DNA of 64,000 nt from Xylanibacter rarus (lineage in GTDB: Bacteria > Bacteroidota > Bacteroidia > Bacteroidales > Bacteroidaceae), in assembly GCF_001275135.1 (NCBI RefSeq), contig NZ_LFQU01000009.1, positions 48,842 through 112,841 on the forward strand, written 5' to 3'. This document shows, piece by piece, positions 28,357-30,159 of the stretch. How positions within the stretch are numbered: position 1 is the stretch's first letter; the number at the start of each line of letters is the position of its first letter. The notes below the pieces were generated by a model. The model was given only the letters and a program-made list of their open reading frames with translations, had not been told where the DNA came from and ran no database searches. The translations under genes were made by a program, and so were the position numbers.

Positions 28357-28905
28357 ATGAAAAAAATCAGGTTTATGTTTGTGCTGTTGTTGACAGCATT
28401 CTTTTTTTCTGCATGCGACAAACCCTATGATGATTCGGAAGAAGGCATAGATGACGGAACGGAGATTGTCGGCGGAACGGATAAGGACACCGGTTCGGAT
28501 GATGAAGATGAAGGCGATGGTGAGTATGATGATGATACAGGCATTTCTTTTGGTGATGTTGTGGATGTAGAGACGTTTATCAGTAAGCCTATAGTTGATC
28601 AGGTATGGGTGAAGGGCTACATCGTAGGTTCGGCAACTGGCGCCAATGGTAAGAAACGATATGATTTTGAACCTCCGTTTGATCACGATACAGCATTACT
28701 CTTGGCTGACGATCCTGCAACAGCAGACCTTTCTCATGTCGTTTCAGTATGCCTCACGTCATGCTCAAAGAAAATACGTGAGGAACTCAATCTAAAGGAA
28801 CATCCTGAAAATCGCGGCAAGGTGTTGTCTGTGTTTGGTTTCCGCGAGACGTATCTTGCCATTCCCGGAATAAAGAAAATAGATGCTTACGAATTTTCGA
28901 ATTAG
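28357..28905 (+). CDS. Lipoprotein with acidic linker and DUF6359-like domain
   Basis: A 182-residue lipoprotein (lipobox FFFSACDK). A strongly acidic linker (about 22-65, rich in D, E and G) precedes a small beta-barrel domain (about 66-180). The motifs VWVKGYIVGSATG...LLLADDPAT...VCLT...LKEHPENRGKVLSVFG are those I associate with the DUF6359 family of Bacteroidetes surface proteins, whose role is unknown to me. The gene is alone on this strand. Its 3' end faces the cobalamin-riboswitch transcript coming from 29.4 kb, whose terminator stops about 100 bp short of it. Confidence 0.65.
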   Translation: MKKIRFMFVLLLTAFFFSACDKPYDDSEEGIDDGTEIVGGTDKDTGSDDEDEGDGEYDDDTGISFGDVVDVETFISKPIVDQVWVKGYIVGSATGANGKKRYDFEPPFDHDTALLLADDPATADLSHVVSVCLTSCSKKIREELNLKEHPENRGKVLSVFGFRETYLAIPGIKKIDAYEFSN

Positions 28906-29003
28906 GATGTTGATGTGTCTTATGTTTTCGGCTATTGAAGAATTGTCTATGTCATTTTTGCATCTGATCTTGATAAATCCTTGACTGATAGGGCGATAAA
29001 ATA

Positions 29004-29031
29004 ATTGACAACGCCTCACGGCGTTGTCAAT
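29004..29031 (-). terminator. Terminator of the cobalamin riboswitch transcript
   Basis: A perfect 12-bp stem (29004-29015 with 29020-29031) and a 4-nt loop. A T-rich tail (TATTTTATC) is present only on the minus strand, so it terminates the riboswitch transcript rather than the lipoprotein gene on the plus strand. Confidence 0.85.
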
Positions 29032-29224
29032 CTCGGATAAACTTATATAATTAAAACACGATAATATAACGTCTTGTCAAATGTAGCGTCAATGTGTAAT
29101 ACTCACGTCAACTGCATATAGCGATATTACACAGCTATGCAGTGACACGGCATTTATTAGTCTGATATTAATTTTATAAGATTGACCATAGCCCCTTACA
29201 TCGAGAGAATAGGTCTTACATCAT

Positions 29225-29372
29225 AAGGCAGGTATTCTGACTTTGTTCCACTTTCAAGCACCTTCCCGTTTTCACAGTGGCATGTTACTTTTAAGTTATA
29301 AAGGAACTTACAGCTGCGGGACAGTCGGAGATTTTCACCCCGTTCCCTTTTTAATCGAGTCGTATCGAACCT
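29225..29372 (-). promoter_or_regulatory. Cobalamin (B12) riboswitch aptamer
   Basis: Read on the minus strand, the element has the conserved order of the cobalamin aptamer: AAGGGAA...GGGTGAAAATCTCC (about 29352-29328), GACTG-CCCGCAGCTGTAA (about 29327-29309), and the 3' B12 box AGTCAGAATACCTGCC (about 29243-29228). The family binds adenosyl- or aquo/methyl-cobalamin and usually switches off transport or synthesis genes for B12. Here no such gene follows. Confidence 0.9.
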
Positions 29373-29382
29373 TAATCATCCG

Positions 29383-29413
29383 CAAAGATACATATAGTTT
29401 GTCAAAGTTCAAA
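29383..29413 (-). promoter_or_regulatory. Promoter of the riboswitch transcript
   Basis: On the minus strand TTTG (29413-29410), exactly 19 nt, then TATCTTTG (29390-29383): a full match to the Bacteroidetes consensus, with a start site near 29377. Confidence 0.75.
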
Positions 29414-29562: not shown

Positions 29563-30159
29563 ATGGAAAATATAAGTAGGTTGACTGATGAGGAGTTAGC
29601 TATTTCTTATGTAAGGGGAAACAACAGGGCTTTTGATGAGCTTTTATCAAGAAATCAGAGCAAATTGTTCTCATACATATTGTTTGTCGTCAGAGACGAG
29701 GACAAGGCCAACGACCTGTTTCAGGAAACTTTTGTGAAGGTTATAACAAAGCTGCATCAGGGCAGGTATGTTGACAGTGGAAAATTCGGAGCGTGGATTA
29801 TGCGCATCGCGCATAATGTCATTATGGATTGGTATCGTGAGCAGCGTTCGCGTAATCTGATTGAGCCTACTGACGAGAACGATCTCTCTAATCTCAGCGG
29901 CAATGAAATACTGGACAGCAACGTTGAAAACCGTTATGTAAACGATCAGATAATGGTTGATGTCAAGAATATGATGAATATGTTGCCTCCCACGCAGCGT
30001 GAGGTTGTGTTCATGAGGTTTTATCAAGATTTGTCGTTTAAGGAGATTGCCGAGACTACGGGAGTCAGCATCAATACTTCATTGGGCAGGATGCGGTATG
30101 CTATCCTCAATCTGCGCCGTATGTCAAAGGAACATAATATAGCGCTCCAGCTTGACTGA
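29563..30159 (+). CDS. ECF-type sigma-70 family RNA polymerase sigma factor
   Basis: A 198-residue sigma factor. Region 2 covers about 10-85 (FDELLSRNQSKLFSYILFVVRDEDKANDLFQETFVKV and the RNA-polymerase-binding/-10 helices around AWIMRIAHNVIMDWYRE). Region 4 covers about 125-190 (LPPTQREVVFMRFYQDLSFKEIAETTGVSINTSLGRMRYA, a helix-turn-helix). No anti-sigma gene is next to it, unlike the sigma factor at 47.5 kb; the neighbour on the left is a riboswitch transcript in the opposite direction. It is probably a general or stress ECF factor; target genes are not deducible here. Confidence 0.92.
   Translation: MENISRLTDEELAISYVRGNNRAFDELLSRNQSKLFSYILFVVRDEDKANDLFQETFVKVITKLHQGRYVDSGKFGAWIMRIAHNVIMDWYREQRSRNLIEPTDENDLSNLSGNEILDSNVENRYVNDQIMVDVKNMMNMLPPTQREVVFMRFYQDLSFKEIAETTGVSINTSLGRMRYAILNLRRMSKEHNIALQLD

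Follow-up and report, generated by a model that had tools for sequence, protein, structure and literature searches.

A cobalamin riboswitch joined to a conserved seed and terminator in Xylanibacter rarus: a candidate B12-sparing small RNA

Layout of the unit on the minus strand

The window, a stretch of 64,000 nucleotides (64 kb) of Xylanibacter rarus, carries on its minus strand a compact unit between an ECF sigma gene, which is divergent from it, and a DUF6359 gene, which converges on it and ends 90–100 nt short of its terminator (Table 1). A Bacteroidetes-type promoter lies ahead of the aptamer, and its two elements and their spacing were as given in the preliminary description of this DNA; the −7 box, in the form TAncTTTGCA, was kept at the promoter position in 48 aligned units, that of the window and 47 others. 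The Rfam search on the minus strand returned RF00174 over the full length of the model (1–189 of 189), at a score above the gathering score of 31.5, and this was the only Rfam family to reach its gathering score in the window. The element is thus confirmed, as a sequence prediction, to be a complete cobalamin riboswitch aptamer.

The loop of the hairpin that we read as P13 presumably serves in the kissing-loop interaction, and CGAGGA-type loops were found at the P13 position in several gene-linked riboswitches. In the window sequence, the ORF check revealed no gene between the aptamer and the terminator. No same-strand B12 gene was found behind the aptamer, where a terminator stands instead; this is an exception to the usual placement of such aptamers and not to the aptamer family. 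The preliminary description had reported no reading frame longer than about ten codons in this interval. The longest ATG frame wholly inside the spacer indeed has 10 codons, and the limit is valid for ATG starts only, because a GTG frame at 29148–29089 has 19.

The 12-bp terminator with its T-tract on the minus strand, also described earlier, agreed with the sequence and folded as a perfect hairpin, the 3′ tract reaching 28996. No terminator was seen between the aptamer and the seed. With its own promoter, an intrinsic terminator and no coding gene, the unit has, at the level of sequence, what is looked for in a small-RNA gene. Cis-antisense overlap of the pocR type was not found, the predicted transcript ending at 28996 and the convergent gene at 28905. 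In folding predictions the seed was unpaired at a mean of 0.42, compared with 0.35 for the preceding 55 nt; the value for the window's own seed was 0.28 in the full-length RNA and 0.69 in the 3′ piece, and no conclusion on accessibility is drawn from these figures.

Table 1 Features of the unit and its neighbours in the window
Feature	Position	Strand	Basis or detail
ECF sigma gene	29563..30159		divergent from the unit
Promoter: −33 TTTG (29413–29410), 19 nt, −7 TATCTTTG (29390–29383)	29383..29413	-	sequence
Cobalamin riboswitch aptamer, RF00174	29210..29389	-	cmscan, 95.1 bits, E 2.1e-22
CTCTCGATGTAAGGG hairpin, read as P13, loop CGATGTA	29193..29207	-	TCTCGATGTAAGG conserved in 48 units
Spacer, about 130 nt, neither sequence nor length conserved	29061..29192	-	consensus of 48 units
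Seed region, core GTGTTTTAATTATATAAG (29059–29042)	29038..29062	-	drifted form of TACGTGTATTATTATATAAGTTT
Terminator hairpin: ATTGACAACGCC (29031–29020), GTGA loop, GGCGTTGTCAAT (29015–29004), then TATTTTAT	29004..29031	-	
DUF6359 gene	28357..28905	+	converges on the unit

Conservation and spread of the unit and its motif

A search with the whole unit gave matches in 30 of 60 relatives, mostly to the aptamer alone. Reading of the loci revealed the same layout in several genomes of the genus, two of them (L005 and L007) with the same divergent sigma gene, and the 3′ part of the relatives' units consisted of a motif of about 20 nt, like TACGTGTATTATTATATAAGT, followed by the terminator. The alignment of 48 units kept the −7 box, the aptamer, P13 TCTCGATGTAAGG, the TACGTGTATTATTATATAAGT motif and the terminator and left the spacer free; of the synteny of aptamer, spacer and terminator proposed earlier as a check, the spacer is the part that is not kept. 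The stem of the hairpin varied between units, with a loop that was most often GTGA or GGGA, and had the look of an ordinary terminator.

The exact 17-mer core of the motif occurred in 116 of 398 genomes of the genus and its reversed-pattern control in none, and the loose form GTGTN{0,4}ATTATATAAG occurred in 192 of the 398. The loose pattern also caught a different repeat, GTGTGCCTATTATATAAG, which recurs 6–8 times each in G156, G170 and G372. Among the 80 titles listed in a scan of named genomes, 58 belonged to Prevotella, Prevotellaceae or Xylanibacter, 5 to other Bacteroidales and 17 to unrelated organisms (loci unread); a stand-alone unit is present in X. ruminicola SIG140. The window's own genome contains three cobalamin riboswitches, with the motif seen behind the window's unit only, and four sites of the loose motif, one being the window's unit and another an antisense match that ends at the mutA start.

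The 128 places listed for the 17-mer comprised 126 unique sites, near which aptamers were placed with an nhmmer profile of 68 regex-found aptamers and that of the window. A cobalamin riboswitch lay upstream on the same strand of 120 of the 126 sites. Within 400 nt behind a same-strand aptamer there were 91 sites; 43 of these had a start on that strand within 260 nt and 48 did not, and 21 of the 48 stand-alone units had a divergent ECF sigma gene as judged by sequence pattern. Another 29 sites were 1.6–5.5 kb behind an aptamer, several of them between genes for CbiK-like proteins (one CbiK Pfam-checked), TonB-type receptors or precorrin-type enzymes. A single site had no aptamer in 4.9 kb of surrounding sequence. 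Five sites were antisense and ended 11–18 nt before a start codon, in four cases that of oadG. At the 43 leader-type loci, seed and hairpin were kept ahead of the gene.

Several individual sites had features of their own. In the cbiK-like genes of L240, L241, L242, L243 and L215 (CbiK by Pfam in L240 only), the sense motif occupies the first codons, read as MKYVYYYIS, MKNVYYYIS or MQNVYYYIS, and a possible hairpin follows it inside the signal-peptide code. A small-protein code as the meaning of the seed was considered and rejected: the frame GTG-TAT-TAT-TAT-ATA-AGT is open at the cbiK-like starts and broken in the window (GTG-TTT-TAA). A generic element was likewise rejected; 84 TATTATATAAG places were found in seven genomes, and in the 30 that were read a terminator followed three aptamer-linked ones and, by eye, none of the others. 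At L104 (contig C63 of G031) a putative ribonucleotide reductase gene, taken as such from its N-terminus, lies within 300 nt downstream of the unit. At L001 (contig C20 of G000, about 1760–1830 of the locus) the frame after the C20 riboswitch starts with MKQRLAIMFLCMAVFTG and is stopped by a TAA. A second frame, of at least 462 codons and extending past the edge of the locus, opens soon after this stop, and the gene may be a broken one.

The recurrence of one sense element in B12 transcripts, in leaders (43 of 126 sites) and between genes (29 of 126) is the pattern that shared targets of a protein would give. Motif and hairpin might then bind an RNA-binding regulator, such as an antiterminator or decay factor, which the stand-alone RNA would titrate in the way that EutX and Rli55 titrate EutV. 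A protein decoy of this kind, raised by the sense copies in B12 operons, was dropped once antisense matches had been found at oadG and mutA, and we consider it improbable: it predicts neither reverse-complement sites at the starts of these genes nor the matched changes of seed and leader described below, and what is conserved of the element is a linear 20-mer, next to a hairpin with a variable stem that resembles any other terminator.

The leader-type relatives with a nearby gene, together with the drift of the window's seed, would also suit a unit that once preceded a now-lost B12 gene and is functionless today. Such decay is very unlikely in view of the number of stand-alone sites, the divergent sigma gene at 21 of them, the maintenance of promoter box, aptamer, seed and terminator beside a freely changing spacer, and the pairing that the genome's own mutA leader still offers (see below). 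A transporter gene directly downstream in relatives, which the preliminary description had named as a possible mark of deletion here, had a counterpart at other loci only, namely the 43 leader-type sites with a same-strand start nearby, where seed and hairpin are kept. By sequence comparison, the window locus is a conserved unit rather than a decayed leader, and the earlier preference for a trans-acting RNA is favoured by the comparative data, namely the 48 of 126 stand-alone sites and a conserved seed that matches the mutA and oadG leaders.

Complementarity of the seed to mutA and oadG leaders

Target prediction for the 3′ region, which had been proposed as a check, identified its conserved part as a seed: judged by sequence, mutA leaders, and often oadG leaders too, are complementary to the motif. 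mutA encodes, with mutB, the B12-dependent methylmalonyl-CoA mutase, and oadG belongs to the next enzyme. The oadG copy of the window's genome matches OAD_gamma and forms an operon with genes for a biotin carrier and a decarboxylase beta subunit, and in several genomes, including this one, mutA and mutB are divergent from the oadG operon. The mutA leader of the window's genome, AACAACTTATATAATATTACACTT-ATG, is almost reverse-complementary to the seed as far as the start codon. Its predicted pairing with the genome's own seed reached −14.8 kcal/mol (empirical p 0.0145); with the consensus seed the predicted pairing is stronger (−22.0 kcal/mol). The duplex of the whole RNA with this leader (−22.6) contained a large unpaired bulge and was left out of the argument. 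No site was found in the oadG leader of this genome (−7.7 kcal/mol), so that the match of the conserved seed to leaders encoded elsewhere is here the one at mutA, joined in many relatives by one at oadG.

Analysis of gene content showed mutA in 29 of 30 chosen seed-bearing genomes, compared with 13 of 30 in which the motif had no match. Four of those 13 had variant units (G076, G083, G102 and G104), and the remaining 17 genomes without a motif match had no mutA at the threshold used. The seed-bearing genome without mutA, G034, had a weak and partial match at oadG. The 9-mer CTTATATAA was present in 23 of 33 mutA leaders, 10–27 nt before the ATG, from test genomes that had been picked for having a seed, compared with 15 of 926 control leaders. 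The controls run from 50 nt ahead of the first ATG to 10 nt behind it in frames of at least 200 codons, drawn from all six frames, and include some false genes. Identified by their N-termini, the 15 control leaders with the 9-mer comprised 12 oadG leaders, one unfiltered mutA, one gene at L222 and one false frame over a unit; with the oadG, mutA and false-frame cases set aside, the comparison is 23 of 33 against 1 of 926. The gene at L222 (contig C10 of G316) is phosphoglucomutase-like by eye and has an exact complement of the 17-mer 13 nt before its ATG.

When each genome's own seed was paired with its own mutA leader, 32 of the 33 genomes fell under an empirical p of 0.05 and 19 under 0.01, with a median of 0.0045 against 895 controls, which are the 926 minus 31 oadG leaders; before that removal the best-scoring control leaders were mostly oadG and the median rank was 1.6% of the 926. 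The consensus seed paired with the 33 mutA leaders of unit genomes at a mean of −17.1 kcal/mol, compared with −8.0 for 18 outgroup mutA leaders, which came from other families of the order in a set of 24 genomes searched for mutA and not for the motif. Three near-identical metH leaders had no site (−8.2 to −8.7 kcal/mol). The 31 oadG leaders averaged −16.5, compared with −8.7 for the 895 controls, a comparison that was not blind and carries no weight, as the N-termini were partly chosen after the scores were known. At 29 oadG loci that were read, the start was found in 25, and many had ACTTATATAATAAT or part of it; by eye, G000 and G375 had no ACTTATATAATAAT at oadG. The exact complement of the 17-mer stood at four oadG starts. 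In G362, a relative (83–84% over two matched stretches), the values were −18.8 for mutA and −18.1 for oadG; G085 was identified as P. koreensis KCOM 3155 from 100% identity over 3 kb.

If seeds and leaders pair, their sequences might be expected to change together. Own seeds paired better than swapped ones (−17.3 vs −15.9, sd 0.33, p 5e-5 from 20000 permutations with kinship ignored). Variant seeds were present in 12 genomes; in eight of these (G005, G009, G073, G076, G087, G102, G263 and G375) the genome's own seed beat the consensus, and in four (G000, G083, G104 and G277) it lost, G104 pairing poorly with its mutA leader (p 0.29). Matched changes were seen in G076 (seed GTTATATAAG, leader CTTATATAAC) and in G102 (seed AAGTTAC, leader GTAACTT). 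Where the seed reads CGAAGTG (G009, G073, G087 and G263), TTCG preceded the start in three of four genomes, compared with 0 of 29 genomes with other seeds; these four are probably one lineage. The sequences thus point to a partial co-variation of seed and leader, in few events.

Analysis of the links between units and sites also revealed cases that do not fit. Nine mutA genomes of the genus had no unit among the riboswitches found; four of them (G019, G020, G035 and G121) still paired at −15.5 to −23.1, G004 was in between (−12.2), and G008, G084, G089 and G149 had no site (−6.8 to −7.9). A search for the exact 14-mer ACTTATATAATAAT in 38 genomes listed 60 places, of which 18 antisense or unplaced sites were read: 4 at mutA or oadG, 8 within 20 nt of the starts of other genes (lactate permease in two cases), 2 at a greater distance ahead of SusC-like genes and 3 inside coding sequence, with 1 left unassigned. 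Because of these eight sites and that at L222, the leader matches are not limited to B12 enzymes. Leaders of lactate permease in L337 (G028; Pfam-checked) and L340 (G068) had the exact ACTTATATAATAAT 18 nt before the ATG, and on these matches lactate permease is a possible third target. At L342 (contig C2 of G237), two opposed SusC-like genes are preceded by nearly the same sequence, which includes ACTTATATAATAATGTACGTGTACAT and may be an invertible promoter region.

The eight sites at other genes' starts are what would be seen if the AU-rich leaders of this phylum resembled the complement of any AU-rich motif. We give such chance similarity little credence: the outgroup mutA leaders and the three metH leaders scored like controls, the 9-mer was concentrated in mutA leaders once oadG had been set aside, and the 17-mer had exact complements at four oadG starts. 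That the motif serves as a DNA operator for a transcription factor at mutA and riboswitch loci is hardly conceivable, for although the mutA sites lie near apparent promoters, the opposite orientations are fixed, the window's motif is about 330 nt from its promoter and directly before the terminator, and the oadG site lies inside an operon.

Proposed mechanism and related systems

The best reading of these sequences, and in our judgment a likely one, is a riboswitch-controlled, base-pairing, B12-sparing small RNA. Since the seed is complementary to the mRNA starts of propionate enzymes, the RNA probably turns down these B12-dependent enzymes when B12 is scarce. At low B12 the full transcript of about 380 nt would be made and perhaps processed to a piece of about 60 nt consisting of seed and terminator. 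The AU-rich seed, when free, would pair with the mutA-mutB leader and, in many relatives, with that of oadG-mmdC-mmdB. This would cover the region just ahead of the start codon where ribosomes enter and so lower translation and mRNA level. At high B12 the occupied aptamer would reduce the RNA and release methylmalonyl-CoA mutase and its partner decarboxylase. B12 would in this way be spared for other enzymes, and a pathway unable to run without it would be turned down. We infer the synthesis of the RNA, its lowering by B12, its processing, its direct pairing and the repression; for the direction, with B12 lowering the RNA, we rely on how cobalamin riboswitches usually respond and on the data for KHP1 (PMC11575231).

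In X. ruminicola KHP1, B12 raises mutA and mutB by log2 1.3–1.7 in both RNA and protein, oadG, mmdB and mmdC of the mutA locus are marginally up, and mmdA and mmdC of a second locus are unchanged or slightly down (PMC11575231). The PduO adenosyltransferase also rises with B12 (log2 1.56), and of four riboswitches predicted, none is near these genes; the authors consider the mechanism not known and apparently without direct involvement of a cobalamin riboswitch (PMC11575231). The two transcripts reported there to rise in KHP1 are those whose counterparts in relatives match the seed. The rise of PduO is so far left unexplained by the small-RNA model, and the single PduO leader seen (G237) had no site.

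Several known systems resemble parts of this proposal. Rli55 of Listeria and EutX of Enterococcus are non-coding RNAs under cobalamin-riboswitch control that keep B12-dependent catabolism off without B12 by sequestering the ANTAR protein EutV. The preliminary description had drawn this analogy, which fits the switch; the mode of action proposed here is another: EutV is sequestered there, whereas the window's unit has a linear seed complementary to mRNA leaders and would base-pair in trans. The sparing logic is that of RyhB, which is made when iron is scarce and turns off iron-using enzymes; RyhB, however, is controlled by the protein Fur, whereas the window's RNA would carry its own predicted cofactor sensor. 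SreA and SreB are SAM riboswitch RNAs that act on prfA mRNA. In them the riboswitch fragment itself is the regulator, whereas the window's unit has a dedicated seed beside its terminator; what is shared is the pairing in trans of a terminated riboswitch RNA with an mRNA leader, a mode mentioned in one paper (PMC9943018). As described in two papers, a Listeria RNA antisense to pocR is controlled by a cobalamin riboswitch and represses a B12-dependent pathway at low B12 (PMC9943018, PMC11575231), as proposed for the window's unit. That RNA is cis-antisense to its neighbour, whereas the candidate targets of the unit are at other loci and its terminated transcript overlaps no neighbour.

At the leader-type loci, where seed and hairpin come before the gene, the same RNA may be produced, and the gene would need read-through. 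With less assurance than for the RNA itself, we lean towards a genus-wide B12-sparing regulon based on a portable cassette of seed and terminator that has spread through cobalamin-riboswitch transcripts and would silence the propionate pathway in trans. Its carriers would be stand-alone RNAs, leaders, intergenic parts of B12 operons and even the first codons of cbiK-like genes. Since the cassette lies in transcripts of B12 starvation, those transcripts would also release the same small RNA. The parts are of known kinds; searches of open-licence PMC texts, preprints excluded, brought up neither their combination nor this pair of targets nor a spread of the seed cassette.

The proposal would account in mechanistic terms for a published puzzle: in rumen Xylanibacter, B12 raises methylmalonyl-CoA mutase with no cobalamin riboswitch close to the gene (PMC11575231). 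If true, a riboswitch would here control a small RNA that base-pairs with matched targets, a cofactor would be spared with no regulatory protein involved, and common rumen bacteria would have a succinate/propionate switch.
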